From positions 1 through 64,000 of the forward strand of contig JAJFGG010000102.1 of assembly GCA_021776235.1 (NCBI GenBank): DNA of 64,000 nt. Direction: 5' to 3'. The notes beneath the pieces were generated by a model. The model had not been told where the DNA came from. It ran no database searches and saw nothing but the letters and a program-made list of their open reading frames with translations. The position numbers and the translations under genes were made by a program. Within the stretch, counting starts at the first letter, position 1; each line of letters starts with the position of its first letter. Below are positions 1 through 61,069 of the stretch, one piece after another. The DNA is from Alphaproteobacteria bacterium. Lineage in GTDB: Bacteria > Pseudomonadota > Alphaproteobacteria > GCA-2731375.

Positions 1-108
1 ACTACCCACCCGCTCCCCCTGCCCGTCCACCCACAGGGTACCATTAATGGGTGGACGGGCAGGGGGAGCGGGTGGCCCGGCGACTCGATGAATATCGAAT
101 CCGGTCTA
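1..108. repeat. Palindromic intergenic repeat, copy 1
   Basis: This segment recurs at 6967-7074 with one mismatch (position 100 versus 7066). It contains a perfect 28-bp inverted repeat (6-33 and 48-75) around a 14-nt loop, followed by a conserved 33-bp tail. The loop holds the small palindrome GGTACC, and CCATTAATGG spans the loop and right arm. It may continue left of the window. No coding potential is seen. It could be a REP/MITE-like element or a structured RNA element. Confidence 0.85.
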
Positions 109-9545: not shown

Positions 9546-11042
9546 TCAAGCTTCGTGGGTGGGACCCAGGGGATAGTAGCGCACACCGGGGCGCAGCTTT
9601 CTATAGCGGCAATCGGCCGGATTGGCGACGTAACCGCCGGGCGCAATGGCGGCAAAGGTGGTTTCCGCGATGGGATCGAAGTGGGCCCGGTAGTGACAGG
9701 TGCTTTTCAGCACGATAATGGCCTGGTCCTGCAGCACCAGACCCAGATGTTCAAAGACACTACGGTCAAGCGCCTGCACGCGGCGGCTGCTGATCGCCAC
9801 CTTGACGCCGCCGATGGATAACAGGGCGGATAGGCCTACGTCATAGGCCTTGCCCTGGGATACCGGTCCCGTGGTGTCATAGCGGCCATCGTTGATGACT
9901 TCTACGGTGAAGTCGCCATGAAAGGGTTCGACGCCGGGCAGCTCCGTACGGCCGCCCAGGTCCAGGGTCAATTCCGCGCCAACGCCGGCGGCGTGGGCGG
10001 CGGCGGCGGCCCGTTCATCCTGTACCACGCCGAACAGGGCGCCCTGGGCATCATGGGCCACCAGGGCCGCCAGCATGCCCACGGTATCACCGCTGCCGCC
10101 GCAACCCGGGTTATCCTGGGTATCCGCCACCACGATGGGCTTTTGCGCCGAGGCGGCCAGGCGCATGGCTTCCTGTACCGCCGCGTCGGGCGATAGCAGA
10201 GGTTGGGCGAATTCCGCCTCTTTCAAGGCGATCATCTGGGTAATCTCGTCGACCGCGGCGTCAGCCGCCTTCTGGCTGTGGGCGTGGGCACTGACCGACG
10301 GGCCGCAGGCCGCCAAATCCGATGGCGGGAAGCCCGCCAGATAGGCCAGAGACAGCATGTCATCTGTCTGCCGCGCCGCTGCCGCCTCGACGATGCCCTT
10401 AGATGGCTGCACCAGGGTGCACTGAAAATTCAGCGGCAACAAAAACGGCAACTGCCGCAGGGCCCGGCCGGCGGGGCGGCCTTCGATCAACAGCCGTTTC
10501 ATGGCGGCGGAAGCGCGCTGGCCCGTGGCGTATTGATCCACGTGCGGATAGGTGTGATAGGGCAGAATGGCGTCCGCCTGGGCGACCATGTCCGGCGAGA
10601 CGTTGGCGTGATAGTCCAGGGAGATGACGATGGGCACCTCATCACCAACCACGGCGCGGACCCGGCGCAGCAGTTCGCCTTCGCCGTCCTCGTGCTGGGC
10701 CGAAACCATGGCCCCGTGCAAGTCCAGATAGACGCCGTCCACGGGCAAAGCATCGGACAGCCGCCCGATGATTTCGCCGGCGATGCGTTCATAGGCATGG
10801 GCCGTGACCGTGCCGCCGGGCGTGGTGGAGGTCCACAACAGGGCCGCCAGTTCGTGATTGCCGTCGTTGCCGGCAATGAAACCGGCGGTGGAGGCACCGC
10901 TGACCGCGAATTCGGTCAGAATTTCTTCGCCGCGCAGAATACCGGGCCGGTCCGCCGGTCGGGCGAAATGCTCATAATCCGTCAGCTCGGGTACGAAACA
11001 GTTGGTTTCGTGCATAAAGCCGGCAATCGCGATGCGCGCCAT
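9546..11042 (-). CDS. M81-family metallopeptidase (MlrC/microcystinase C-like)
   Basis: A 498-residue protein of the MlrC family (DUF1485 plus MlrC C-terminal domain). Conserved features are HETN near the start, LDLHGAM, SLDYHANV, the DTQDNPGCGGSGDT stretch and KSTCHYRAHF near the end, which supply the expected metal ligands. Founding members act in breakdown of the cyclic peptide microcystin, but most homologues sit in unrelated catabolic clusters with unknown substrates. ATG at 11042 is the first codon. It is likely cotranscribed with the molybdenum hydroxylase gene downstream. Confidence 0.9.
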   Translation of the reverse strand: MARIAIAGFMHETNCFVPELTDYEHFARPADRPGILRGEEILTEFAVSGASTAGFIAGNDGNHELAALLWTSTTPGGTVTAHAYERIAGEIIGRLSDALPVDGVYLDLHGAMVSAQHEDGEGELLRRVRAVVGDEVPIVISLDYHANVSPDMVAQADAILPYHTYPHVDQYATGQRASAAMKRLLIEGRPAGRALRQLPFLLPLNFQCTLVQPSKGIVEAAAARQTDDMLSLAYLAGFPPSDLAACGPSVSAHAHSQKAADAAVDEITQMIALKEAEFAQPLLSPDAAVQEAMRLAASAQKPIVVADTQDNPGCGGSGDTVGMLAALVAHDAQGALFGVVQDERAAAAAHAAGVGAELTLDLGGRTELPGVEPFHGDFTVEVINDGRYDTTGPVSQGKAYDVGLSALLSIGGVKVAISSRRVQALDRSVFEHLGLVLQDQAIIVLKSTCHYRAHFDPIAETTFAAIAPGGYVANPADCRYRKLRPGVRYYPLGPTHEA

Positions 11043-11064
11043 AGTTTTCCGCCAATTCTGTTTG

Positions 11065-11098
11065 TGTGACTGTAGCTTGAAGTCACAATGAAGTCACA
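11065..11098. promoter_or_regulatory. Candidate operator, repeated TGTGACT/AGTCACA motif
   Basis: TGTGACT (11065-11071) and AGTCACA (11081-11087) form a 7-bp inverted repeat, and a further AAGTCACA lies at 11091-11098. The site is just upstream of mlrC (start 11042), where a regulator could bind. This is pattern only; no binding protein is identified. Confidence 0.35.
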
Positions 11099-11450
11099 GG
11101 AAGTTCCATTGGTGCTCACGTGCAGGGGCGCCGAAAACCGAGACAACCAGTTTAGTCGCCAGCGCGCAATTAAGATTTTCTTAATGGTCGAGACCCTTCG
11201 AATGGAGTTCGCTGTTACCCAAGCAACCGCTTTCGAAGTGGTCACGCCAGTTTTTAGCCGAGAATATGATACGATCGAAAAGGACTGGTACTTAGGTCGA
11301 GATCTCATGAAAAAAATGGGCCGGTTCGTGACATTGACCGGTGATCCATCACAAGATGATCAATCCGTAATCAATGTTGGTTTTCGGCACAATTTCGATT
11401 GGAGAACACCGACGGAAAATAGGTCAGATCCGAATAGAAAGCGCGAGTAA
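11088..11450 (+). CDS. Hypothetical protein, doubtful
   Basis: A 120-codon frame in the otherwise empty 445-bp gap between mlrC and the retron reverse transcriptase. I recognise no family. Its middle has a plausible mixed composition (AFEVVTPVFSREYD, KDWYLGRDLMKKMGRFVTL). The end is polar. It runs opposite to both neighbours, has no good ribosome binding site, and overlaps the repeated AGTCACA motif at its start. It may be a small island gene or a chance frame at the island edge. Confidence 0.25.
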   Translation: MKSQEVPLVLTCRGAENRDNQFSRQRAIKIFLMVETLRMEFAVTQATAFEVVTPVFSREYDTIEKDWYLGRDLMKKMGRFVTLTGDPSQDDQSVINVGFRHNFDWRTPTENRSDPNRKRE

Positions 11451-11487
11451 ATCTCAACATCGCGCCAAGTCTGCAATGGTACCATGG

Positions 11488-13233
11488 TCATGTAGACGTG
11501 CTATCATCCGTTGGCACGTGATCTGCCAGAACCTTGGCTATACGGTCTAGCAACGGATTAAAACCGACAAAATTAATCTTGTCCGCGTTTTTTTGCACTA
11601 CGGCCTTCGCGAAAACCTCTTTGCCATATTCTTTCTCCGGATCAATTTTGCTCGCGGGACTAAATCGCTTCCCATTGAGTTTTATCTCCCGCCATTTCTT
11701 GGGAAACATATCCTCAATGCAACTTTCGCCGCTGGTTTCAGGCGTTTTGATTAGATATAGATTCTCGGTGATATGATAGAAGTCATCGGTTGATTTAAGA
11801 TTTATGGTAACATTGAAATTCTTTTTGATGGTGGAAGCTACCTGCCCCAGTCCATCATCGTTATCTAGGAGAAGGATCACGGGCCAAGACATGGGGATAC
11901 TCTTTATCGGTTTTCGTTTTGGATTATCTTTCTTGAAGTTACGAAGGTAGTCCAACGGAATAGACCTCAGATCGCCCGCGCCGCCACCTAAATCCATGAT
12001 CTCGCTAACCTGTCCGCCATACTTGAAAAATTGAATGGCAAATTCGAAACCCTTCGCTCCAGGCTTTCCTAGAATCGGATGGAATTTTCTCCGCTGTTTG
12101 ATCGCCTCTTTGAGATATATGGGATCGGTCTTGCCTTCTGTGATGATGAGCGGTTTGTCGGGGTTAACGCATTTCCTATAGAAGAGGAATCGCCGGTAGA
12201 GCTCTCGGATTGCACGAGGCTTGTTGCGTTGCTCCTGTGCATCGCGTCGCTCTTCGGTCTGAGTAATCGAGTAGATATGGCTTAGGATTCCTTCGAGATG
12301 GTTGAGGTTATCCGTGTATTTAGGTTGAGGCTTCTCATCCGGGTCTTCTGAAGGAATATAGGAACAGAAATAGTTGCCAGTTTGAAATAACGAATCACAC
12401 ATTGCTCTTGCGCGGCGGTAATAATCGCTCCGAATATTGACCTTCTCGTTTACAACGAGACCTGTGACCAATTGGCGACTGCCTCGACAATGCATTCTTG
12501 TCTTCTCAGGGTTAATCACAAAACCAGACCCTGAAACCTTGGAAACGAGTTCCTCTCCCAGTGTCCAATCGGATACTTCCTCCTCACCCTGAACTGCCAG
12601 TGCGGCGGGGAATATTTTTTGATTTGTTGAGAATGTGATGTCATCAGCGTAGCGAGAATAGGTCACGCCATATTTTTTGGCCAATCTCAAAAGACGTATG
12701 TCAAGAATCCGCCCTATCAATTCTGAGATTACCGGTGAGCACGGGCTTCCTTGCGGCAACGCCTGACCATCGCATGCTATCTGTGCAATCGTGGTGGCTA
12801 CTTCTTCCTTTAACTCAAACGACTTATCCTTCAAAAAAAATCCTCTTACCCGGCCAAAATTAATGGAGGGAAAAAAGTCAGACAGGTCAAGATTTAGGAC
12901 ATAGCGTCGCCGCTTGTGATTTCTAGCATTATCTGAAATTGTGCCCTTTTTTCGGAAACCGAAGGACACTGCTCTGACATTTTGAGATTCTTCGATTTCA
13001 GTTAAACAGGCATAAAGCAAATGCGCCAAATGAAGCTGAAGCTTCTTTAGTTTCTGGTTAGGGGCCTTAATAATTCTAGTGCCGCCCGATTTTTTGGGAA
13101 TCTCAAATTCCGTGTATCGCCGTATAAGGGGCGTTTGATAAATGATCGCTGTCAGCGCCCTTGGCTTGAACCCAAGGAGCCTCGCCAAATCTTTTCTGTT
13201 TTCGGTAGATCTTAATTTATCAAGGTAGCTCAA
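11488..13233 (-). CDS. Retron reverse transcriptase fused to TOPRIM-like effector domain
   Basis: A 581-residue fusion. Residues about 40-290 are a retron-type reverse transcriptase: NARNH (102-106, the retron NAxxH signature), LDLSDFFPSI (motif A), LPQGSPCSP (159-167), YADD (195-198, catalytic) and VTG (256-258, retron signature). Residues about 358-581 resemble a TOPRIM domain: ITEGKTD (364-370) supplies the glutamate and LLLDNDDG (454-461) the Asp pair. This is the architecture known for retron Ec67-type anti-phage systems, where the RT makes msDNA and the fused nuclease-like domain is the presumed effector. The start is TTG at 13233. A predicted msr-msd RNA lies directly upstream. The sequence is A+T rich compared with the flanks, which suggests transfer. 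Confidence 0.9.
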   Translation of the reverse strand: MSYLDKLRSTENRKDLARLLGFKPRALTAIIYQTPLIRRYTEFEIPKKSGGTRIIKAPNQKLKKLQLHLAHLLYACLTEIEESQNVRAVSFGFRKKGTISDNARNHKRRRYVLNLDLSDFFPSINFGRVRGFFLKDKSFELKEEVATTIAQIACDGQALPQGSPCSPVISELIGRILDIRLLRLAKKYGVTYSRYADDITFSTNQKIFPAALAVQGEEEVSDWTLGEELVSKVSGSGFVINPEKTRMHCRGSRQLVTGLVVNEKVNIRSDYYRRARAMCDSLFQTGNYFCSYIPSEDPDEKPQPKYTDNLNHLEGILSHIYSITQTEERRDAQEQRNKPRAIRELYRRFLFYRKCVNPDKPLIITEGKTDPIYLKEAIKQRRKFHPILGKPGAKGFEFAIQFFKYGGQVSEIMDLGGGAGDLRSIPLDYLRNFKKDNPKRKPIKSIPMSWPVILLLDNDDGLGQVASTIKKNFNVTINLKSTDDFYHITENLYLIKTPETSGESCIEDMFPKKWREIKLNGKRFSPASKIDPEKEYGKEVFAKAVVQKNADKINFVGFNPLLDRIAKVLADHVPTDDSTST

Positions 13234-13252
13234 CGCTTGCTCGCAATCGAAT

Positions 13253-13395
13253 TGGACTTGTAGGCACTCTTACGCGATATTGGGTCAATCCATTATTATC
13301 ATTTAACCCGCATTAAGTGTCATGGGAGCACAAGTGCTATCCGTGTCTCGAATCATATGCCTCGAATCCGGGCAACAAATCTGCCTACAAGTCCA
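13253..13395 (-). ncRNA. Predicted retron msr-msd RNA
   Basis: The interval sits 20 bp upstream of the retron RT gene on the same strand. Its ends are a perfect 14-bp inverted repeat (13382-13395, a1; 13253-13266, a2), the pairing that defines retron RNAs. A G follows a1 and could be the branching residue, though the exact base is not proven. Internal stems are AGCAC-AA-GTGCT (13327-13338) and a 7-bp stem with one G-U pair (13282-13288 with 13303-13309), which is a candidate msd hairpin. An 8-bp direct repeat CTCGAATC occurs at 13347 and 13361. The predicted length is about 143 nt. Confidence 0.78.
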
Positions 13396-13417
13396 TGAAC
13401 ACACTATCATTCTAGCG

Positions 13418-13423
13418 ATTATA
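13418..13423 (-). promoter_or_regulatory. Candidate -10 box for the retron transcript
   Basis: A perfect TATAAT on the minus strand lies 22 bp upstream of the predicted 5' end of the msr-msd RNA and follows TGAC. The -35 region is not well conserved. The remainder of the 450-bp gap, 13424-13683, shows no gene or other structure I can support. Confidence 0.4.
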
Positions 13424-13683
13424 GTCAAGGAAGACTTTTCATTGCAGCTTCATCTTAGATCTGTGGTACAAAACGGCAAGTTAAATTGGTTGCAGGGACC
13501 AGCTACCAGCGCCCGAATTATTATCCTATTTAGACCCGCCTCGACCCGGTCGCGCGACGGCGGAGGTTATTGGGATCGATCGTTTCGGCGCTCTGATACA
13601 AGTGCATCCCGAAGACGCGATTATTCAGTCACTCAACTTTGAAACAGATGCTGAATTATAACGTATCGAATTTGACCAAACGG

Positions 13684-15063
13684 CTAGATCCTGGGCCAAG
13701 GAAAATTTCCACCAGAAATGTCGAATTTGCCGTCGTAGTGATTACGTTTTAGGTACCGGAGATCATCCTCCCAGTCGGAGATTGCTACTGAATAATCCCT
13801 GGTCTGGTATTTTGCTCTTCGCACGCAGCCTGCAATCGCATACGCAATTCGCTTCAATCTCGCTGCTGTTTGCGCGCCGCCGATATTTCTGTACTTGGCT
13901 TCAAGCCCCGGCTGTTGGGTTGCCAATAAAGTTTCTAATATCTGGCGTCGCCGAACCGTCGGCAGTCCATTCCGACCGACTCTATATTCAAAATCAGTAA
14001 ATAGCTGCTCGCCACTAAAGTCGTCAGTCGTCAGACGGCGGTTAAAATAGTCCTCAGGGGTCGCCGCCAAAACCAAAGACCGAATTTCCGTCGAAGGCCA
14101 CTTGAAATATTCAAGGCTGGATTTCAGTCGGTCTCGTTTTTTGTTTCTAAATAAATCTATTTGACGAAGTATGTTTGCCAAAAATTCTAAATCTATATCT
14201 CTTATTTTTCGATGATCTGTGTAATATTCAATTCCATCTTCAAGAACCTTAATTTCCCTTTTTTTTGATTTTAGGAATTTGATGAATTTTTTTGCATCCC
14301 TTTTTTCGTATTCAGAGAACAACATGTTTGCATAATCTTCATACACAATTTCCCTTTGACGCAGTTTTTCTTCTAACTCGGCCTTTTCTTTGACAGCATT
14401 GGCCGCATTATTAACTGGTATAAGTTGTCGCGCGCCCGCCAACATCACCCTTTTCCCGGGCTTCTGGCCACTTGCTACTTTTCGATTTCGGACACCAGTT
14501 TTCCTCCCAGGTTTTGACTTCGATCGCTTGAATAAGACATCCTTAAAGTCCTTTGCCTTAGCCGCTTCCAAAGCTTTTTGATATGCAAATCCATTTTCGG
14601 AACACCAGGCACCAAACCCAATTTGACAAATCTCGATTTTGACCTTTGCCGGAAGCCTGTCCGCGACAACAGGCGGAAAAGTCACGTTGTCTTCTTTGGC
14701 CCCCATGACACACAGATTTATAGCGTGTTTAAAGTTCGCCGCCGAATAAATGTTGGCGCGGCTATCAGAATTTTTTCTTGATTTGCCCGATTTCCGGCCT
14801 CTGTTTATCTCAAGCTTGGCGAACTTCCTCCAACCCACTTTTTCAATTTCGCTGCGAATTTCGTCGGAGGCTTTTCCAACAATTTTTTCTATATTTGTGT
14901 GGAGATTCCCCCCGGCAGAAACAGCATGCCTAAGCTGCCGGCGAATGGTCGTTCGGTTGCGAACGACAAGAGACCCTTTCGTCAGGAGGAATTTTGGTTT
15001 CTTGTGCTTTTTCGATTTTGTAGCCTTGCCTGGCTGAGTTGGGCCCTCCTTCGCATCAGCCAT
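13684..15063 (-). CDS. Lysine-rich protein of unknown function in the defence island
   Basis: A 459-residue protein I do not recognise. The N-terminal ~40 residues are strongly basic (KSKKHKKPKF), with further basic patches near 85-95 and 185-210, which suggests nucleic-acid binding. A charged, probably coiled-coil region covers about 225-300 (AVKEKAELEEKLRQRE). The C-terminal part ends in a helical module with DYSVAISDWEDDLRYLKRNHYD, a WExDLxxL-type tail I associate with unassigned defence-island proteins. No Walker, HNH or PD-(D/E)XK motif is visible. It lies between the RM genes and the retron on the same strand, so it could be an accessory of either or a separate system. Confidence 0.75.
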   Translation of the reverse strand: MADAKEGPTQPGKATKSKKHKKPKFLLTKGSLVVRNRTTIRRQLRHAVSAGGNLHTNIEKIVGKASDEIRSEIEKVGWRKFAKLEINRGRKSGKSRKNSDSRANIYSAANFKHAINLCVMGAKEDNVTFPPVVADRLPAKVKIEICQIGFGAWCSENGFAYQKALEAAKAKDFKDVLFKRSKSKPGRKTGVRNRKVASGQKPGKRVMLAGARQLIPVNNAANAVKEKAELEEKLRQREIVYEDYANMLFSEYEKRDAKKFIKFLKSKKREIKVLEDGIEYYTDHRKIRDIDLEFLANILRQIDLFRNKKRDRLKSSLEYFKWPSTEIRSLVLAATPEDYFNRRLTTDDFSGEQLFTDFEYRVGRNGLPTVRRRQILETLLATQQPGLEAKYRNIGGAQTAARLKRIAYAIAGCVRRAKYQTRDYSVAISDWEDDLRYLKRNHYDGKFDISGGNFPWPRI

Positions 15064-15104
15064 TCATACCCCCCAATGTCGCAAGTTGTTGCAACAGATC
15101 GGCC

Positions 15105-15326
15105 CTATCCATCCAGCTCTAGGTCATGCGCAAACACCGCGCCAACGACAGCAAGATCTGATAAGGCGAGCCCCTCATCTTCAGCCACTCGCCGTAACGC
15201 TTGAATGGCTTTGTCTTCGGTGTCATAGCCCCAACGCACTGTGACGTAGCTGAAGTCTTCGGACGACTCATCCTGATACTCCATACGGCAGATTGAAAAC
15301 TTCGTACTAAGACTACGACCGATCAT
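15105..15326 (-). CDS. Small hypothetical protein
   Basis: A 73-residue acidic protein, unrecognised. The second half (EDKAIQALRRVAEDEGLALSD followed by hydrophobic LAVVGAVFA) looks like a compact helical domain. ATG at 15326 has only a weak upstream purine stretch. It lies 95 bp downstream of hsdR and 41 bp upstream of the 459-residue protein on the same strand, so it may be part of one long transcript. Confidence 0.5.
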   Translation of the reverse strand: MIGRSLSTKFSICRMEYQDESSEDFSYVTVRWGYDTEDKAIQALRRVAEDEGLALSDLAVVGAVFAHDLELDG

Positions 15327-15421
15327 GATTGCTCACATACTTGCTATCATTAATTGCCAGAAAAGATTGCCGGCCCGATTTATTCAAAATTTTTTGTGGA
15401 CTCGTGGCAGTGCCACCGCCA

Positions 15422-18400
15422 TCACCGCGCCTCCTGGTAAGCCGAAGCGTTTTTTGCACTCATCACTACGTGAGCGAAAATTTCATCGGTCTTGATTTCG
15501 ATCTCGTCGGGACCAAAGCTTTCCGGGAGGCCCGTTTTTTCGTCCCACAGAAAATCCTTGATCCGCATTTTCACATCGTCGCGGGTGGATTCTTTGACGA
15601 AGAAATCCTGCACGCGGGAGATTTCGGCCCGCAGCGTCTTGTACAGTTCCTCCGCGACCTTCTTGATGCGGGCAATGTCTTGTTTCGAAAGTTCGGGTTT
15701 CAGCAGCAAATCGAACAGCGCCAGCGCCTCTTCATCAAGCCCTTCCTTGACCGCCCGTTGCTGCTCCACATTCAGATCTTCGGTCATTTTCAGCAGGGCG
15801 TGAAAGGTGCGCTCAATCGTCACCCGATCTTTTTCGCTGTTATATTGGGCGACGATCTCTTCGTAATGTCTCTGAAAATCCGTTCGTGTGGGGTTCTGCA
15901 TCAGCATCATTTGAAGACGGTTTTCGATCACCTCCTTCAAGCTTTGCACCGTAGTGTTCTTGGCGGGGCTTCGCTGAAACTCTTGCCTTAGACGAAAAAA
16001 GTCGATTTGGCTGATGTCGTAAAGCTTGTCCTCTTCAAATCCGCCGGGCGATTTGGTTTCGACCGTTTCGGCGATGATCTTGTGAAGTTCGCGAATGATG
16101 TCGGATATATCGGCTTTCGCCACATCTTCCTTAAGGCTCTTGTAGACGATGTTGGTGGCATCATAGGCATGGCGGTAGTTGTTTACGCCCTTGATGGTCA
16201 GGCATGCCTTGAACTTCTTGAACACCTCCCGACACATGATTTCGAACCGCTTGCGGGATTCATCATTCTGATTGACCGCTTCCTTGGCATCAATGATGGC
16301 GCGGTTGCGTTCAAAGCCGGTCTTGTCGTTGATGTCCTGAAGCCGGAAATCATAATTTTCCAGATAGGCTTTTACGGCCTCGATGGCTTCCTCCAAGTCA
16401 GCCAGCAATTCTTCTTCAGGGCGAACCGGGTCCATCTCGGGCGGTGGTGTTCCGTCGCCACCAATAACCCCCTCGCCTTTGTGTCCGGCAAAAGTGGCAA
16501 GCGCCTTGCGCAGGTTTTTGAGTATCCCGCAGTAGTCGACGATCAGGCCGTTGTTCTTGCCTTCATGGATGCGGTTGGCCCGTGCTATGGCCTGCATCAA
16601 TGTGTGGGCTTTCAGGGGTTTGTCCAGATACAGGTTCGACAGGCACGGCACGTCGAAACCCGTCAACCACATCGCACAGACGATGGCGACGCGAAATGGG
16701 TGCTCTTCCTTTTTGAAGGCGCTTTCCACATCAATCCGCTTGCCGTCCCCCGTCTCGAACCCCTCCTTGATCAGCTTGCGGTGCGGGGTAATGTCCAATT
16801 CCCATTTGCGGAATTTATCAACTTCGCCTTGTTCCTCGCTGACCACGACAGCCATGCGGGTCTCGCGCATCCATGCCAGTTGCCGACTTCTGTCGGCCAG
16901 TTCCTGTTCATCAGCGCTGCCGTCGAGTTCCTTCTCCAGCTCAACGATGCGCTCGCCCCAATATTTCAGAAACAGACCGTGCACCCGGACACAGGTAATC
17001 TTGTCGATGCAGATGACCATTGCCTTGCCGGTTTCCCACTGCGTGCTGTAGTGGGTGACAAAGTCCTTTGCAATTTCTTCCAGGCGAGGTTCGGCGGTGA
17101 TCAGGTGATAGTCCCGTTTGAGCTCTTTCTCCAATCGCTCTGTCGCATCGATATCTACCGCTTCATATTCTTCCAGCTTTTCGGCAATACGTTCGTTCAG
17201 GTCGTTTGTGGCGATGCCAAGCTTGTCGCCGCGTGCATCGTAATAGAGCGGCACGGTGGCTTCATCCTCGACCGCCCGCTGGAAGTCATAGGTCGAGATA
17301 TAATCGCCAAACACCCGGCGGGTAATTTCATCGTCTGTGAACAGTGGCGTACCGGTGAAGCCGATCCGGCTGGCTTTGGGTAGGGCATTGCGAAGGTTCA
17401 GCGACAACCGCCCATATTGCGTGCGGTGGGCTTCATCGGTAATGACAATGATATCGTCGCGGTCCGAATAGGCACTGTCCGGGTCGACATCCTTGTTGAA
17501 CTTCTGCACCAGGGTGAAGACATACGCCTTATGCTGACTTAACAACTCCCGCAGGTGATCGCCTGAAGCGGCACGGCACGGGTCTTTGTCGTTGTCCACG
17601 AGACCACAGCCGGCGAAGGTTCTGTATATCTGGCCATCAAGATCATCACGGTCCGTGCAGATCAGAAAAGTGAAATTGCTACCCATCTTCCGGTGAATCT
17701 TGCGGGTCAAGAACGCAATGGAATAGGATTTTCCGGAGCCTTGTGTATGCCAGAACACGCCCAGCTTGCCCTGCCGTTCCTTGCGCTCCCGCGTTGCCTC
17801 GATGGCACGATTGACGCCCAGGAATTGATGGTTGCGGGCTATGATCTTGACCATCGAACCGCCGCTTTCATCGAACAGAATGAAGTTTTCAAACAGGTCG
17901 AGGAAATCAGCCTTGCTGCAAACACCCTTCAGCAGGGTTTCCATATCCACCACACCGGGCTCATCTTCCGCAAGGCGTTTCCAGTCATTGAAATGTTCAA
18001 ACTTGCTGGAAAGGGAACCGATCTTGGCATCAACACCATTGCCCAACACTATAAAGGCGTTGTGATGGAACAGGTGCGGGATGGTGTCCTTGTAATCCGC
18101 CAGATTATCTTCATAAGCCCGGCGAATATCCTTGTGGATGGTTTTGCATTCGATAAAGAGCAGCGGCAGGCCATTGACGAAGCCGATAATATCAGCCCGC
18201 CTGCGATAGATATCGCCCCGCACCCACAGTTCCCGCACGCACAGGAAATGATTGTTATCGGGATTATCGAAATCGATGACCTTCAGGCGTTTCTTAACCA
18301 GCTCGCCCTTGTCGTTTCGGAACTGGGCTTGCACACCGTTCTTCAGCAGGTCGTATTTGCCGTGATTGGTCTGAAGCGTCGTTTGAATGGCCGGTGTATC

Positions 18401-18643
18401 AGTGATCTGCCGCAAGGCATCCTGATAGGCGGCATCGGGCAAATCAGGGTTTAGCTTAACCAGCGCCTCGCCCAGATATCGGATCAACACCACATCCTTG
18501 TCAGACGCCCGGCCCAGCAACCCTTCCGGCCCATAGGTTTCGTTATTGTAAGCGAAGACATTGTCATCCCAGCGAAGCAGATCATGTAGATAATCAGCGG
18601 TAGTCTGTTGAACGAGTGTGTCTTCGTTTAAGGCAGGGTTCAT
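15422..18643 (-). CDS. hsdR: Type I restriction endonuclease subunit R
   Basis: The 1073-residue motor and nuclease subunit. Residues about 120-180 hold a PD-(D/E)XK nuclease site (Asp151, then ECK at 165-167). A DEAD-box-type translocase follows, with Walker A in HTQGSGKS (299-306), DEAH at 403-406 and a helicase C-terminal region with QAIARANR. A C-terminal domain for binding the methyltransferase core is expected beyond about 800. With HsdM and HsdS it would cleave unmodified DNA after ATP-driven translocation. The ATG overlaps the hsdS stop by 4 bp. The length is normal and the frame intact, so the system looks functional. Confidence 0.96.
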   Translation of the reverse strand: MNPALNEDTLVQQTTADYLHDLLRWDDNVFAYNNETYGPEGLLGRASDKDVVLIRYLGEALVKLNPDLPDAAYQDALRQITDTPAIQTTLQTNHGKYDLLKNGVQAQFRNDKGELVKKRLKVIDFDNPDNNHFLCVRELWVRGDIYRRRADIIGFVNGLPLLFIECKTIHKDIRRAYEDNLADYKDTIPHLFHHNAFIVLGNGVDAKIGSLSSKFEHFNDWKRLAEDEPGVVDMETLLKGVCSKADFLDLFENFILFDESGGSMVKIIARNHQFLGVNRAIEATRERKERQGKLGVFWHTQGSGKSYSIAFLTRKIHRKMGSNFTFLICTDRDDLDGQIYRTFAGCGLVDNDKDPCRAASGDHLRELLSQHKAYVFTLVQKFNKDVDPDSAYSDRDDIIVITDEAHRTQYGRLSLNLRNALPKASRIGFTGTPLFTDDEITRRVFGDYISTYDFQRAVEDEATVPLYYDARGDKLGIATNDLNERIAEKLEEYEAVDIDATERLEKELKRDYHLITAEPRLEEIAKDFVTHYSTQWETGKAMVICIDKITCVRVHGLFLKYWGERIVELEKELDGSADEQELADRSRQLAWMRETRMAVVVSEEQGEVDKFRKWELDITPHRKLIKEGFETGDGKRIDVESAFKKEEHPFRVAIVCAMWLTGFDVPCLSNLYLDKPLKAHTLMQAIARANRIHEGKNNGLIVDYCGILKNLRKALATFAGHKGEGVIGGDGTPPPEMDPVRPEEELLADLEEAIEAVKAYLENYDFRLQDINDKTGFERNRAIIDAKEAVNQNDESRKRFEIMCREVFKKFKACLTIKGVNNYRHAYDATNIVYKSLKEDVAKADISDIIRELHKIIAETVETKSPGGFEEDKLYDISQIDFFRLRQEFQRSPAKNTTVQSLKEVIENRLQMMLMQNPTRTDFQRHYEEIVAQYNSEKDRVTIERTFHALLKMTEDLNVEQQRAVKEGLDEEALALFDLLLKPELSKQDIARIKKVAEELYKTLRAEISRVQDFFVKESTRDDVKMRIKDFLWDEKTGLPESFGPDEIEIKTDEIFAHVVMSAKNASAYQEAR

Positions 18644-19896
18644 ACCGCAACTTCCCCACTCATCAACTTGGGTAGCAGGAGGTCGCGGGCCTTTGCCAAC
18701 GCCAGGTTTTGCCTTTGGAGAATTTCAATTTGGTCGAAACTGTCTTTAGCGACAGCGCAGAAACCTTCCATCAGTTGATTTGATGGCAGAAGGATCTCGA
18801 ATTCCTCAATTGTCGATTTCGTAAGCGCTTCTCTAGTAGCTCCGCCTGCCCTGGCGATACTTAAGATTAGTTGTTTTTGCCTCGGATAGTTGATCGCACA
18901 TAAAAGGTATTCGGAGCAAACCACATCGGGAATCGGGCGCATAATCATTACATGCTGGTTGACCCTAGCAGGGAGATGGCGACGAGGTGCAATGCAACAG
19001 CGGGCGACAGACGCCCCAGTTATATTGATAAGAACATCGCCTTCTTCAACAACGACATTTGCAAGTCTGTCCGCTTGTTGCTCGTTGATAAATACGAGCC
19101 CATGATCGTGAAAATCATAGTCGTAGATGTTCAAGCTACGGATGAGGGAAATGCCTTTGGACTGGTAACTTGCAGCTCCTCCCCTTGGAGTAGCTCCACT
19201 TCCAATTTTTGTGCATATGTCGACGATACGTTTTTTCTCCCAGCCCTCTGGCATGCCGTCAATGATTTTGACGTGTTCGTGGCCGGGGAAGCGGAATTGG
19301 ACGAACCATTCCTTGTAGAGTTGCCGTGCGGCCTCCTCCAACAACGCAATCCGCCGCCGGTTGTTCTCGATCAGGTCGTCGTAGGCAGAGAGGATAGAGG
19401 CAATACGTTTCTGTTCGCCCAGTGGGAGAAGAGGAACCGTAAACCCTTCTATCATTTTCTTGGTTAGAGCTTTTCTTGTTCCCCCTGAACCTGACCACGA
19501 AAGCATAGTTGATTGCATTCTTGGCGAGACTAAAAAATGGGCCAAGTAATTAGGATCAAGAGTTTCAGGGTTTGTGCGAATAATCGCCACATGCTGATTG
19601 ACTCGAGCTGGCAGCACATTTGTCGGAACAATGCAGCTTCTGGCTACAGATTCACCCGTAATATTCAAAAGAACATCGTTTTCTTGAACGGATACGCCTT
19701 GCATTCTTTGGGCTGTTTCATCATTGATAAACGCGAGACCAGCCCTTGAAAATTCAGAATTATATACATTTTGACTTCTAATAAGTGCCGTTCCGTCATC
19801 TATATAAACAGACGCACCGCCTCGAGGTGTTATTCCACTCCCAATTTTCCTACAAAGAATTTCTAGCCTTTCACTGTGAACCGCATAAGAACTCAT
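18640..19896 (-). CDS. hsdS: Type I restriction-modification specificity subunit S
   Basis: A 418-residue DNA-recognition subunit with two target recognition domains (about 17-107 and 230-320), each followed by a helical spacer (LSAYDDLIENNRRRIALLEEAA at 169-190; the C-terminal helix near 390). The two TRDs align without gaps over 91 residues with about 55 identities by hand count, including KIGSG, TPRGG, LIRS, NITG and LPARVNQHV. That is unusually high for the halves of one HsdS and predicts similar half-sites. It overlaps hsdM and hsdR by 4 bp at either end, so the three are translationally coupled. Confidence 0.95.
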   Translation of the reverse strand: MSSYAVHSERLEILCRKIGSGITPRGGASVYIDDGTALIRSQNVYNSEFSRAGLAFINDETAQRMQGVSVQENDVLLNITGESVARSCIVPTNVLPARVNQHVAIIRTNPETLDPNYLAHFLVSPRMQSTMLSWSGSGGTRKALTKKMIEGFTVPLLPLGEQKRIASILSAYDDLIENNRRRIALLEEAARQLYKEWFVQFRFPGHEHVKIIDGMPEGWEKKRIVDICTKIGSGATPRGGAASYQSKGISLIRSLNIYDYDFHDHGLVFINEQQADRLANVVVEEGDVLINITGASVARCCIAPRRHLPARVNQHVMIMRPIPDVVCSEYLLCAINYPRQKQLILSIARAGGATREALTKSTIEEFEILLPSNQLMEGFCAVAKDSFDQIEILQRQNLALAKARDLLLPKLMSGEVAV

Positions 19897-21968
19897 ACCC
19901 CCAACTCCTCAAAATTCTTTTGAATTTGAGCGGCCAAGGTGGCGGCTTCGTCGTTGAGATCGGCGAGTTCGTTGTGAATGTCCCCCACGGCTTCTTCGAA
20001 GTCGAAATCTTCGTCTTCTTCTGCCGGTGCAACACCGACATAGCGACCGGGCGTCAGGCTCCAGTCATTGGCTGCGAGTTCATCATGATCCACCAGCTTG
20101 ACCAAACCCTCCACATCCCGCAATTCCGCATCTGGGAAGCGTTCTTGTAGCCAGTGGGCCTGTTTGAAGATGTAGCGAACCAGATGCAGGTGCTCGACAG
20201 CTTCCTTACGGCAACCATCTAGTTCCTTGATTAGCTTGTTCAGTCCACGCCCGCTGGTTGACTTTGCTTGTTTTTCGATGAATTTGAAAAGCTGGTCAGC
20301 CTGCTTGATCAGATCGCGGCTGTTTTCCGCTAGTGGTTCAAGATCTGTTGCGGCTTGCGTTAGTCCGTTATTGTCGCGGGCGGATTGATCCCATGCCTTT
20401 TGCCTCTCGCCCGTGATGGCAAAGTAAGCTTCCGCATCTTCGGAGAACAGGTGATAGGCCTTGTCCGTTTCCTCATCTACCTCGTCCATTTTCTCAACGA
20501 GGTTATTGAAGGCTTGCAGGAAGGATAGAATGGGAACGCCGCTTGTCTTGGCACTTTCCATGGTGACCTGCAGGTAGCATTCGATCAAACTCAGAAATCG
20601 ATCCTGCTGTCCGCGATAGAGCCAGACAATACTGGTCAAGTTTCGCAGGTGTTCCGGTGTAAAATCAAAAACCTTCCGGTTGACTTTGCGATACACATTC
20701 CGGGCATCCAGCATCAAGACTTTGTCTTTGTGTGCGTTCGACTTGTTCTTGTTCAGGAACCATAGTTCACACGGGACAGGGCGGGTGTAAAAGAAATTGC
20801 CGCGAATGGCGATCATGACGTCCACATGAGCGGTTTCAATCAGCTTGCGCCGCACCTCAGCTTCACCACCGCCAGCACTGGATGCCTGTGATGACATCAC
20901 GAACCCGGCTCGGCCTTGTTCGTTCAGGTAACTGTAGAAATAGGATATCCACAGATAGTTGCCGTTGGACACCGCGCCTCTTTGGTTGACGCTCGGCAGG
21001 CCAAAAGGCAGACGCGGGTCATTCTTGATTTTTTCCGCATCCACGTCGTCCACATTGAAAGGTGGGTTCGCCATCACAAAATCAGCCTTGCCGCACAGTT
21101 GGTGATGGTCGTCGTAATAGGTGATGCCCTTCTGGATCTTGCCTTCCAGCCCATGGACGGCAAGGTTCATATTGGCAAGACGGATGGTAGTTGCGTTCTT
21201 TTCTTGGCCCCAGAAGGTCGCCACATCCTGCGGGTTCTTGTGCATCTGTTCGATGAAATGGGCTGATTGCACAAACATCCCGCCCGAGCCACAGGCAGGA
21301 TCGAAGACAGTGCCGTGATCCGGTTCGATCACATTAACCAGCATCTGCACCAGTGACACCGGCGTAAAAAATTCACCGCCATCATGGGCGCTCTGGTCGG
21401 CAAATCGGGTCAGGAAATACTCGTAGATACGGCCAAAGATATCGCCCGTGGCGTGCTTCAATGCAGCATCGTTGAAAGTGCGAAGCAGGTTGCCCAGAAC
21501 GTCATTGTCCAGCTCCTGATATTCGCTTTTGGGTAGCACGCCTTGCAGGGTCTCGTAATCCGCTTCAATGCTGTCCATGGCATCAATGATGGCCTGCGGC
21601 CGGTCATCGGCATCAGACAGATTGACAAGATGATCAAACTGGGCTTCCCGTTTCAGATAGATCGCGCCTTTGCGGGAAAAATCTTCCTTAGTCAGCGGGC
21701 GGGTCTGACCGGCACGGCTTGGCAGGTTTTCTTCGATTTCTGGCTTAACAGCCAAATATCGGCTGTATGCATGCCGCAGGAAGATCAGCCCCATCACTGG
21801 CATGAAATATTCATTGCTGGCGTAATTACTGTTGGCGCGAAGGTTGTCGGCGCTTCCCCACAAACGGCGCTCTATCGCCTCAATATTCTCCAGTTGCGCC
21901 ATTACCCAATCTGTTCCTTCCGTTTGAAGTCTCGCTTTTCGATTGATCACATCGATTTTCGATGTCAT
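19893..21968 (-). CDS. hsdM: Type I restriction-modification DNA methyltransferase subunit M
   Basis: A 691-residue N6-adenine methyltransferase. An HsdM N-terminal helical domain (about 25-170) is followed by the catalytic domain with the SAM motif DPACGSGGM (223-231) and the catalytic NPPF (301-304). The C-terminal ~250 residues are a long helical extension. The first ATG (21968) has no clear ribosome binding site. ATG at 21902 (MAQLENIEAIE) has GGAAGGA about 12 nt upstream and may be the true start. First gene of the hsdMSR operon. Confidence 0.93.
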   Translation of the reverse strand: MTSKIDVINRKARLQTEGTDWVMAQLENIEAIERRLWGSADNLRANSNYASNEYFMPVMGLIFLRHAYSRYLAVKPEIEENLPSRAGQTRPLTKEDFSRKGAIYLKREAQFDHLVNLSDADDRPQAIIDAMDSIEADYETLQGVLPKSEYQELDNDVLGNLLRTFNDAALKHATGDIFGRIYEYFLTRFADQSAHDGGEFFTPVSLVQMLVNVIEPDHGTVFDPACGSGGMFVQSAHFIEQMHKNPQDVATFWGQEKNATTIRLANMNLAVHGLEGKIQKGITYYDDHHQLCGKADFVMANPPFNVDDVDAEKIKNDPRLPFGLPSVNQRGAVSNGNYLWISYFYSYLNEQGRAGFVMSSQASSAGGGEAEVRRKLIETAHVDVMIAIRGNFFYTRPVPCELWFLNKNKSNAHKDKVLMLDARNVYRKVNRKVFDFTPEHLRNLTSIVWLYRGQQDRFLSLIECYLQVTMESAKTSGVPILSFLQAFNNLVEKMDEVDEETDKAYHLFSEDAEAYFAITGERQKAWDQSARDNNGLTQAATDLEPLAENSRDLIKQADQLFKFIEKQAKSTSGRGLNKLIKELDGCRKEAVEHLHLVRYIFKQAHWLQERFPDAELRDVEGLVKLVDHDELAANDWSLTPGRYVGVAPAEEDEDFDFEEAVGDIHNELADLNDEAATLAAQIQKNFEELGV

Positions 21969-22512
21969 CGCGGCGCGACCGCAAAGATATGCAGAATTAT
22001 GAAATCAGTTTTCCGACCGATGTCGCCGGTTGATTAACAGATTATCAGCGAAATTCTTAGGGATTTTAGATCCAGCGATCAGTGTCAAAATTATGATGGA
22101 ATTTTGCGGACGCGTCAAAGTGGTAGAGATAGTGCATATGTTATCCACATTCGAGAATGGCAAAACCGTAGAATGCTCATGATGACCCCGAAATAATGGC
22201 GAACCGAACGATTTGTTGCGAGCCTGCCAGATCCGTGAAGATGACAATCGATACATCAGCGAGTGAGTTCGATTTCTAGTTGCGGCCATCGGACGAAATC
22301 GACGCTCCGCATTCTTTTGTTGGACCTTGCTCCTTGAGTGATATCACGACCGCCGCTATAAACGACCCTGCATCAAGAGCAGGGCCTGACGCCCTCGCCA
22401 ACCGAGCCGACCCGGCCGCGGTGGTGCCCCAGCTGGGGGATGCGGCCACAGGCAAAACCTTGGGCCTCCATCATCGCGTCACCCTCCTCGCAATTGAGGA
22501 AGAAAGTGAAAG

Positions 22513-46337: not shown

Positions 46338-46950
46338 GTGATATCTCCGTTAGCTGCAAAATTGAACCCGACTCATCGGTTACACTTGGGATGCGGCGGA
46401 CGCTCATATTCCAACATTTTGCGGCTTCGGTCAATTCAACATCAACATCTTGTCCCTTTAGCAGGATGATCTGACCGCCCGAGGACAGATGTCCATAGGC
46501 CAGGGGCAATAACCGGGGTAGTGGCGCCAGGGCGCGGGCCGAGATCGTTCCGGCTCTCTGGGGCGGCAAGGCCTCGATTCTATCATTGTGTACAGTCACT
46601 TCCGCGCCGGTAATTCGGGCCGCCTCGCGCAGGAAAGCGCATTTCCGGCTATCGCTTTCCACCAAATGAACATTCCTGACGCCGGCGATGGCCAAAACCA
46701 GACCGGGAAACCCGGCCCCACTGCCCAGGTCCAGCCAGGGTACTTCAGCCTCGTTGTGCCAACCGGTATCATAAAATTTGAGGAGTTGGACCGAATCGAG
46801 CATATGACGCCGCCAAAGATCCTTCAAACTGCGCCGGCTAACCAAATTGATGCGTCGGTTCCATTTGCACAACAAGGCAGCATAGGCTTCCAGGCGCGTC
46901 AGTGTTTCACGTGAAACATTGGCGTCCGTCTGAAATTCCGCCCCGGTCAT
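46330..46950 (-). CDS. rsmG: 16S rRNA (guanine-527-N7)-methyltransferase
   Basis: A 206-residue SAM-dependent RsmG (GidB). LDLGSGAGFPGLVLAI is the SAM site and VSRETLTRLEAYAALLCKWNRRINLVS the typical start. The frame is open to 47097, but ATG at 46950 matches the family start. The codons for NVSRET contain a perfect parS sequence, as known for rsmG in many bacteria. Second gene of the mnmG-rsmG-parA-parB cluster. Confidence 0.95.
   Translation of the reverse strand: MTGAEFQTDANVSRETLTRLEAYAALLCKWNRRINLVSRRSLKDLWRRHMLDSVQLLKFYDTGWHNEAEVPWLDLGSGAGFPGLVLAIAGVRNVHLVESDSRKCAFLREAARITGAEVTVHNDRIEALPPQRAGTISARALAPLPRLLPLAYGHLSSGGQIILLKGQDVDVELTEAAKCWNMSVRRIPSVTDESGSILQLTEISRV
46903..46918. promoter_or_regulatory. 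parS centromere site 1
   Basis: TGTTTCACGTGAAACA, a perfect 16-bp palindrome matching the conserved ParB-binding consensus, inside the 5' part of rsmG. Confidence 0.95.
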
Positions 46951-48910: not shown

Positions 48911-48926
48911 TGTTTCACGTGAAACA
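48911..48926. promoter_or_regulatory. parS centromere site 2
   Basis: A second perfect TGTTTCACGTGAAACA palindrome, in the intergenic space between mnmE (ends 48949) and mnmG. The spacing to site 1 is 2008 bp. Confidence 0.95.
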
Positions 48927-58760: not shown

Positions 58761-59807
58761 TCAGCCGCGCAGCATTTCAGCCAAACGGTCAACATGTTCA
58801 GGTGGCGTTTCCGGCACGATGCCATGGCCCAGATTAAAAATGAACGGCCCATGGCCCAGAATTCTCAGAATTCGACGCACTTCCGTTTCCATTGCCGAGC
58901 CACCGATGACCAAAAGCCGGGGATCCAGATTGCCTTGCAGGGTCGCTTTACCCTCGGCATTCGACCCCTGCAATTCCGCTGCCGCCCATTCCAATGGCAC
59001 AGTCCAGTCCAAGCCAATTCCATTGACCGCCCCGGCCTGGGCAAAAGTCTTATAGCCAGCACCGACACCACGGGGGAAACCAATTATTGGAAGCTCCGGG
59101 TATTTCCGCCGTAACTGCACCGCGATTTGTTGCACCGGCTCGATACACCAGCGTCGAAAAGCCGTTTCCGATAACGCCCCGGCCCAGGTATCAAACAGTT
59201 GCACCGCCTCGGCGCCGGCATCGACCTGCCGGGACAGATATTCCACCGTGGCAGTCACCAACAATTCAATTAGCCGGCCAAATCCATCCGGATCGGCATA
59301 AGCCCATTGTTTCACGATCGCATGATCGCGGCTGCCCCTGCCCTCCACCATATAGGTCGCGACCGTCCAGGGCGCGCCGGCAAAACCGATCAGCGCAACG
59401 TTGTCCGGTAATTCCGACGCCAGCCGGCCAACAGTCTCATACACCGGTGCCACGCGCTCATGCAGATCATCCATGCGTAATTGCGCTAATTCCGCGACGC
59501 TGCGGACCGGCTCCAAAATCGGCCCCTCGCCCTCGCGGTAGTCCAGTGCCTGGCCTAATCCATGCGGAATGAGGAGAATATCGGCAAACAGTATGGCCGC
59601 ATCCATGCCAAACCGCCGGATCGGCTGCAAGGTAACTTCCGTCGCCAGATCAGGATTGAAACAAAGGTCCAGAAAGCTGCCGGCCTGAGTACGCGTTGCC
59701 CGGTACTCCGACAAGTACCTGCCTGCTTGCCGCATGAACCAGAACGGCGGGCGCGTCAGCGTCTCACCCCGTAAGGCACGAATAAGAAGTTTATGTTCTG
59801 TTGGCAC
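58761..59807 (-). CDS. hemE: Uroporphyrinogen decarboxylase
   Basis: A 348-residue enzyme that converts uroporphyrinogen III to coproporphyrinogen III. RPPFWFMRQAGRYLSEYR is the signature start, with GFAGAPWTVATYMVEG and the catalytic aspartate in AILFADIL. The start is GTG at 59807. It is the first gene of the haem operon and borders the predicted replication origin, as in Caulobacter, where hemE flanks Cori. Confidence 0.96.
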   Translation of the reverse strand: MPTEHKLLIRALRGETLTRPPFWFMRQAGRYLSEYRATRTQAGSFLDLCFNPDLATEVTLQPIRRFGMDAAILFADILLIPHGLGQALDYREGEGPILEPVRSVAELAQLRMDDLHERVAPVYETVGRLASELPDNVALIGFAGAPWTVATYMVEGRGSRDHAIVKQWAYADPDGFGRLIELLVTATVEYLSRQVDAGAEAVQLFDTWAGALSETAFRRWCIEPVQQIAVQLRRKYPELPIIGFPRGVGAGYKTFAQAGAVNGIGLDWTVPLEWAAAELQGSNAEGKATLQGNLDPRLLVIGGSAMETEVRRILRILGHGPFIFNLGHGIVPETPPEHVDRLAEMLRG

Positions 59808-60235
59808 TATTCGTATCCCATATCCTCAGGCGCGATCCTATTTTCAGCCTTTCTTTACATATAATATTTTTAAAAGATAGATAGTGGTAGGTAGTGAATC
59901 TCTGTGAAAATCGGGGATTAAGGCCTGTCCCTCGATTCGTCCCGAAGATAATCCCCAATCCATCCGCTTTGCTTACCTATGGGGATAAAGGTGATAAATC
60001 GGGACAACTTCAGGCCGCGCAACATGGGGATATTCGGGATAGAAAAGAGAGCATGGGAATACTCACGGGATATCGATTCGAATGCAGGGCTGCATTCAGA
60101 GGCTAAAATATGCAGGTACTAGTAACCTCTCAAGGTGTGCAATTTTTCTTGTTTGCATGGCGATGCCGGCTTATCCCCATGACTAACAGTTTCCATGTTA
60201 CTGATTCCTGATCTGCAAAAGGCTATTGAACGGCA
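59808..60235. other. Predicted chromosomal replication origin (oriC)
   Basis: A 428-bp gene-free gap between divergent hemE and ppsR. DnaA-box candidates: TTATCCCCA at 60171-60179 (+) and 59980-59988 (-), each one base from TTATCCACA; weaker TAATCCCCA (59949-59957), ATATCCCCA (60025-60033, -) and TAATCCCCG (59912-59920, -). An A+T-rich tract lies at 59851-59880 and could be the unwinding element. A perfect 8-bp inverted repeat (60080-60097) is also present. The location between hemE and the DUF299 gene equals that of Caulobacter Cori. Confidence 0.78.
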
Positions 60236-61069
60236 ATGACCAAGTTTCATTTGCACCTGGTATCCGATGCTACGGGCGATACCCTGCTTTCCCTGGCGGC
60301 CGCTGCTCTGGTCCAGTTCGAGTCTGCGGAGCCGAACCGCCATATGTGGACAATGGTGCGCTCCGAAGCCTTGTTGCTGCCGGTTATTGCCGCGATTGAA
60401 AAGACTCCTGGGCTGGTGATGTTCACTCTGGTGGATCACAATCTGCGGGAAATTCTGCGCGAAGAATGCCGTCGCCTGCAAGTGCCATGTGTACCGGTAC
60501 TGGATCCAATTCTCGGTGCGTTGGAAAATTTTCTCGGCGCCGAAAGCCGTGAATTGCCGGGTCGACAACATATCATGGACGCTGATTATTTCAGCCGCAT
60601 CGACGCCATCCAATTCAGTCTGCACCATGACGACGGACAGGCAGTCGATGGTTTCTACCGGGCCGACGTCATTCTGGTAGGCATTTCCCGTACTTCCAAG
60701 ACACCTACCTGCATGTATTTGGCCAATCGTGGCTTGAAAGCCGCCAATATTCCTTTGGTGCCGGGCATTCCCCTACCCGAACAGTTAATGCAACTGGATG
60801 ACGTCCTGATTATCGGTCTGACCGCGTCTCCGGATCGACTTGTTCAAATCCGCCGCAACCGATTGAAGTACTTGAACCAGGATGAAGACACCGATTATGT
60901 CGATATGCAATCGGTGAAAGAAGAAGTAATCAATGCCCGGCGTCTGTTCGACAGCAAAGGCTGGCCCAGAATTGATGTCACGCGCCGGTCAATCGAGGAG
61001 ACCGCGGCTGCGATCATCGGCTTGCATACTCAGAGAACGGAAGCAAAGGCCGAATTTCTGGGCAAGTAG
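60236..61069 (+). CDS. ppsR: Pyruvate, phosphate/water dikinase regulatory protein
   Basis: A 277-residue DUF299 protein. The bifunctional family phosphorylates and dephosphorylates PPDK or PEP synthase to switch them off and on. The nucleotide motif GISRTSKTPT (149-158) is clear, and HLVSDATGDT starts the protein. The target dikinase is not in the window. The DUF299 gene is the known right-hand neighbour of the origin in Caulobacter (RP001 type). ATG at 60236. Confidence 0.93.
   Translation: MTKFHLHLVSDATGDTLLSLAAAALVQFESAEPNRHMWTMVRSEALLLPVIAAIEKTPGLVMFTLVDHNLREILREECRRLQVPCVPVLDPILGALENFLGAESRELPGRQHIMDADYFSRIDAIQFSLHHDDGQAVDGFYRADVILVGISRTSKTPTCMYLANRGLKAANIPLVPGIPLPEQLMQLDDVLIIGLTASPDRLVQIRRNRLKYLNQDEDTDYVDMQSVKEEVINARRLFDSKGWPRIDVTRRSIEETAAAIIGLHTQRTEAKAEFLGK

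Follow-up and report, generated by a model that had tools for sequence, protein, structure and literature searches.

The hemE–ppsR intergenic region

The window, a 64-kb stretch of DNA from an uncultured marine alphaproteobacterium, contains a 428-bp gap between the divergent genes hemE and ppsR, in which a chromosomal origin had been predicted by a first-pass annotation of the sequence. The main features of the locus are as follows.

58761-59807, minus strand: hemE, uroporphyrinogen decarboxylase, left flank (NCBIfam TIGR01464, 405 bits)
59808-60235, no strand: predicted oriC, the 428-bp region that separates the divergent genes hemE and ppsR, called from box cluster, DNA unwinding element (DUE), conservation among congeners and profile match
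60236-61069, plus strand: ppsR/DUF299 (COG1806-type) regulator, right flank (NCBIfam NF003742, 332 bits)
46903-46918, no strand: parS, exact TGTTTCACGTGAAACA, 12.9 kb from the gap
48911-48926, no strand: parS, exact TGTTTCACGTGAAACA, 10.9 kb from the gap

The hemE–ppsR gap is the usual place of oriC in Alphaproteobacteria, and the origin of Caulobacter crescentus, Cori, has been mapped experimentally to a gap with the same flanks (PMC1914354). Family profiles identified the flanking products as HemE and DUF299/PpsR, which bears out the correspondence with Cori drawn in the first-pass annotation, and the two exact parS 16-mers lie at the distance of 11-13 kb given there. With these flanks, the length of 428 bp fits the ~300-600 bp expected for an oriC in the Cori location. 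An intact dnaA gene is found on a different contig of the same genome (C172). Elsewhere on the window, positions 11000-16000 and 17000-22000 have a G+C content of ~45-53%, against ~58% in the rest, and are possibly acquired DNA.

DnaA boxes and their conservation within the genus

Five elements resembling DnaA boxes are present in the gap.

59912-59920, minus strand: DnaA box-like TAATCCCCG, kept in the genus as GGGGATTA
59949-59957, plus strand: DnaA box-like TAATCCCCA with W-box core TCCCCA; CCCCA core kept in most congeners
59980-59988, minus strand: predicted DnaA box TTATCCCCA
60025-60033, minus strand: DnaA box-like ATATCCCCA; most congeners have TTATCCCCA/G here
60171-60179, plus strand: predicted DnaA box TTATCCCCA adjoining ppsR; TTATCCCC invariant in 11 congeneric genomes

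These comprise two boxes one base from the DnaA consensus (59980-59988 and 60171-60179) and three weaker relatives, as previously annotated, and the CCCC variant described as common to them was recovered as well: five ATCCCC cores fall within the 428 bp, where 0.15-0.18 are expected from the rate in the window (Poisson P ~1e-6). The W-box core TCCCCA is present in the boxes at 59949, 59980, 60025, and 60171. Exact TTATCCCCA occurs twice in the whole window, both times inside the gap, and 23 times in the 6.36-Mb genome, where the gap pair is the only pair less than 9 kb apart. The number of boxes with one mismatch to TTATCCMCA in the whole 64-kb window was not unusual (26, against 20.6 expected), so that the signal lies in their clustering and not in their number.

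The hemE–ppsR gap was located in ten other genomes of the genus and in a sister genus, giving a genus set of 11 genomes with our own included. Nearly all 11 carry gap boxes at near-fixed offsets, namely 102-105 (minus strand; 59912 in the window), 170-173 (minus; 59980), 215-229 (minus; 60025), and 361-375 (plus; 60171). At the second of these sites, TTATCCCCA is replaced by TTATCCACA in one genome (L003), and at the third, two genomes (L005 and L010) carry TTATGCACA. Because known box forms thus swap at the same site, the CCCC elements of the gap can be read as DnaA boxes; the swaps at these two sites are the best sequence evidence in support of this reading.

Box form across the class

A census of boxes covered 96 hemE–ppsR gaps in relatives and in public genomes, the majority belonging to Rhodospirillales, with a few genomes included twice under different locus ids. 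The gaps contained 55 copies of TTATCCACA, 11 of TTATCCACG, 47 of TTATCCCCA, and 41 of TTATCCCCG, with ~0.3 expected of each; the CCCC form TTATCCCC[AG] was thus found 88 times, against 66 for TTATCCAC[AG]. By this count, C is as usual as A at box position 7 across the class. The weak W-box of Caulobacter is TCCCCA (PMC4285127), and the CCCC boxes of the gap are its 9-mer form. The recognition segment of DnaA is unchanged in the genus, its signature ARPRQ...GGRDHTT being that of E. coli DnaA (PDB 1j1v) and of other genera. Since C at position 7 is usual throughout the class, the W-box is already published, and the DNA-contact segment of DnaA is unchanged, the suggestion of the first-pass annotation that these boxes are a lineage-specific form is not supported.

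A related explanation would be that the CCCC boxes reflect an altered specificity of DnaA in this lineage, in line with the absence of TTATCCACA from the origin in 10 of the 11 genus genomes. This is very unlikely, however, as CCCC boxes are equally common in the class at large, the DnaA signature is shared with E. coli and other genera, and CCCC and CAC forms interchange at fixed sites within the genus. The peculiarity of the genus appears to be limited to the near-absence of the canonical TTATCCACA, which is common in other genera. In many Rhodospirillales gaps (e.g., L085, L103, and L119), TTATCCCCG near ppsR has a TTATCCACA behind it, the two starts being separated by 19 bp; of this ppsR-side pair, the window's genus keeps the CCCC member alone.

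The predicted unwinding core

In gaps throughout the class, the left third is made up of an A+T tract, a second tract poor in C and rich in G and T, and CCTGTGGATAnCGGGGAT, in that order. The corresponding features of our gap are the following.

59850-59883, no strand: predicted A+T-rich DNA unwinding element (nearest-neighbour energies)
59878-59897, plus strand: DnaA-trio-like TAG-a-TAG-TGG-TAG-g-TAG-TGA (3'-GNT-5' when read away from the boxes), hardly varying among the 11 genomes of the genus
59902-59919, minus strand: tandem box element CTGTGAAAATCGGGGATT, corresponding to class consensus CCTGTGGATAnCGGGGATt, with a degenerate first box in our gap

The A+T tract reported at 59851-59880 is indeed there: it is 87% A+T and overlaps the 30-mer with the lowest stability anywhere in the 64-kb window (59854-59883, by nearest-neighbour energies).

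DnaA-trios have the consensus 3'-GAT-5' and lie on the strand that forms the 5' tail from the boxes (PMC8287927), and the trios of our gap and of the class agree with this orientation. To describe their sequence, 29 non-redundant tracts (<75% identity) were compared with 300 dinucleotide shuffles. Runs of at least three in-phase TNG were found in 14 of the 29 tracts, against 1.5 in shuffles (maximum 5 in 300), although the shared descent of the tracts means that this comparison overstates the significance somewhat. Runs of A-centred trios (NAN) showed no excess in the same tracts (3, against 3.2 expected). The middle bases of the trios were A in 21 cases, T in 18, G in 8, and C in none.

In our own gap, in-phase trios TAG-TGG-TAG at 59882-59890 precede CTGTG at 59902 by 11 nt, so that at least three in-phase trios with any middle base lie within 16 nt of a box. 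Three trios in a row with A in the middle were not found in this gap, the middle bases being A, G, and A, and neither was an adjacent box with at most two mismatches to TTATCCACA: the tandem boxes have three mismatches each, while the class consensus includes one perfect box. As the first tandem box is degenerate, the gap falls short of the strict published thresholds for a basal unwinding system (BUS), though it has the architecture. Trios without the middle adenine were already suspected by the BUS authors (PMC8287927). Alphaproteobacterial trios could accordingly be of the form 3'-GNT-5', with a free middle base (A, T, or G, but very rarely C) and the outer bases read by DnaA, an idea we advance tentatively and hold at somewhat less than even odds. 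Such a relaxed trio rule, offered here as a hypothesis with good statistical backing, would be a variant of the unwinding code outside the published A-centred rule; if it holds, Alphaproteobacteria would have a basal unwinding system as well, but under a sequence rule that differs.

Genome-wide profile search

From 42 loci, none of them in the genus, we constructed a sequence-only profile that spans the A+T edge, the trio tract, and the tandem box of the core. In our own 6.36-Mb genome, the best and only full-length match was at 59872-59919, inside the gap (profile R1, 22.1 bits, E 9.8e-4); the next best was a partial match of 25 bases on contig C14 (E 9e-3). Matches with E of at most ~0.001 were found in 26 genomes. 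ppsR was found in 23 of these, and in 22 of the 23 it adjoins the best match; in the exception, G048, the top match lies elsewhere and a weaker one lies beside ppsR. Two genomes in which ppsR was not found, G034 (C2:273195-273237) and G054 (C1:270196-270233), have a core match that adjoins hemE. In G012 (C9, upstream of 37736, and C3:444218), hemE and ppsR are on different contigs, and the core has stayed with ppsR, upstream of which a weak profile match, an A+T tract, a TNG run, and a box are still readable. The profile can be used to find the origin core in fragmented assemblies of the class. One further good core match, G045:C3:11880-11920, is in a genome in which neither ppsR nor hemE was found.

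GC skew

Skew could be followed locally, on the 68.6-kb contig of our 174-contig assembly, on contigs of relatives, and on stretches sampled from two single-contig genomes. The cumulative minimum of our own contig is at 61.7 kb, 1.5 kb from the gap. That of the 359-kb G010 contig (148191) lies ~2 kb from its gap, and that of the G006 contig (124307) lies within its gap but close to the end of the contig. Minima were found within ~0-7 kb of the gap in G000, G006, G010, G012, and G008; on the G004 contig, the minimum is not at the gap. Local skew is weak, and gene orientation flips at the gap as well. Among public loci, the hemE side had lower skew than the ppsR side in 37 of 44, with gene direction again changing at the same place. 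In the single-contig class relative G023, skew changes sign near the ppsR gap (3.606 Mb), negative values giving way to positive ones. In G026, where ppsR lies at 2.209 Mb, the switch falls between 2.06 and 2.19 Mb, which is coarse agreement only.

GANTC and other possible regulatory sites

Three GANTC sites are conserved in the gap.

59896-59900, no strand: GANTC (CcrM-type) site, invariant in the genus
59934-59938, no strand: GANTC site, invariant in the genus
60075-60079, no strand: GANTC site in the TCGATTCG block, the block being invariant in the genus

Out of 256 patterns of the form NN-N-NN, GANTC alone has more than one fully kept copy in the 11 genus genomes, with three. Our genome encodes a GcrA homologue and a protein with a RAMA domain whose 373-aa frame matches CcrM in length; this CcrM homologue probably methylates the GANTC sites. 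One block that varies little within the genus, at 60062-60085, is similar to TTATCAACGGCATTTCGATTCG and includes a GANTC site.

The CtrA consensus TTAA-N7-TTAA does not occur in our gap and occurs once in one of the 12 aligned genomes; the G-box TGATCCACA does not occur in our gap either. For IHF, one loose match to WATCAN5WTR is found at 60194. In our own assembly, no match to the CtrA family exceeded the cut-off (best 167 bits, C106:28215-28880), reflecting either an assembly gap or a loss. Loss of the CtrA gene was considered as an explanation for the missing CtrA sites and rejected: the congeners G004, G009, and G010 have CtrA-family matches of 424-426 bits, yet their gaps lack the sites.

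Interpretation of the gap

In Caulobacter, GcrA and CcrM act jointly on promoters, and DnaA also regulates transcription. The gap could thus be a mere divergent promoter of hemE and ppsR, with the kept sites bound by transcription factors, either DnaA as a regulator or GcrA and CcrM; the divergent orientation of the two genes and the CcrM-like and GcrA-like genes in the genome would agree with this. The A+T tract, trios, and tandem boxes, however, stay together where ppsR or hemE has been lost from one side (G034, G054, and G012), most of the local skew minima lie at or near the gap, and Caulobacter Cori maps to the same gap, leaving little probability for a promoter function alone. It is possible that the gap serves as both origin and promoter. 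That the origin lies elsewhere, next to dnaA on C172 or at the parAB-parS cluster, and that the gap is a relic, is least probable of all: oriC adjoins dnaA in many bacteria, the broken assembly leaves room for a second site, and parS lies 11-13 kb away, but no other core-profile match in our genome reaches the same score, the next being the partial one on C14, and a relic would not be expected to keep its non-coding sites so strongly across 11 genomes.

The flanking genes, the box cluster, the unstable A+T tract, the kept architecture, the genome-wide profile search, and the local skew therefore favor an origin, as the first-pass annotation had predicted, and 59808-60235 is very probably the chromosomal oriC of this bacterium. 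By sequence, it is near certain that this is an oriC of the kind already known from Alphaproteobacteria, here in a new lineage. An oriC is thereby placed in an uncultured marine lineage known solely from metagenome assemblies.

Given this anatomy and conservation, we infer the following course of DnaA binding, strand opening, and methylation. DnaA would dock on the double-stranded CCCC-type boxes and the tandem element at 59902-59919, and a DnaA filament would grow from there to the left, covering the TNG trios (59878-59897) on the plus strand. It would then open the adjacent A+T tract at 59850-59883, where the helicase would be loaded. The methylation state of GANTC may mark newly copied origins.

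Comparison with known systems

The closest experimentally mapped counterpart is Caulobacter Cori (hemE–CC0001/COG1806), which, like the Rickettsia hemE–RP001 gap, resembles our gap in its flanks, its length of ~400 bp, its A+T-rich stretch, and its DnaA sites with a TCCCCA core (PMC1914354, PMC4285127). In contrast to Cori, our gap has neither the TTAA-N7-TTAA CtrA site nor the TGATCCACA G-box, carries three invariant GANTC sites, and has boxes that are full TTATCCCC(A/G) 9-mers. The gaps of Rhodospirillales and other Alphaproteobacteria share with ours the core consensus AAAGGTGGCTGTGGT-GTGG-TGCCTGTGGATAnCGGGGATt and TTATCCCCG/A near ppsR; in addition, they usually carry TTATCCACA, in many cases 19 bp behind the CCCC box, whereas this form is nearly absent from our genus.

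The BUS of the Bacillus subtilis type consists of DnaA-boxes, a spacer, and DnaA-trios (3'-GAT-5'). Unlike in that system, the middle base of alphaproteobacterial trios is A, T, or G, and the adjacent boxes of our gap are degenerate by the published thresholds. The order of A+T tract, trios, and tandem boxes is nevertheless the same, the trios lie on the strand forming the 5' tail from the boxes, and the spacer measures 11 nt, as in a BUS (PMC8287927).
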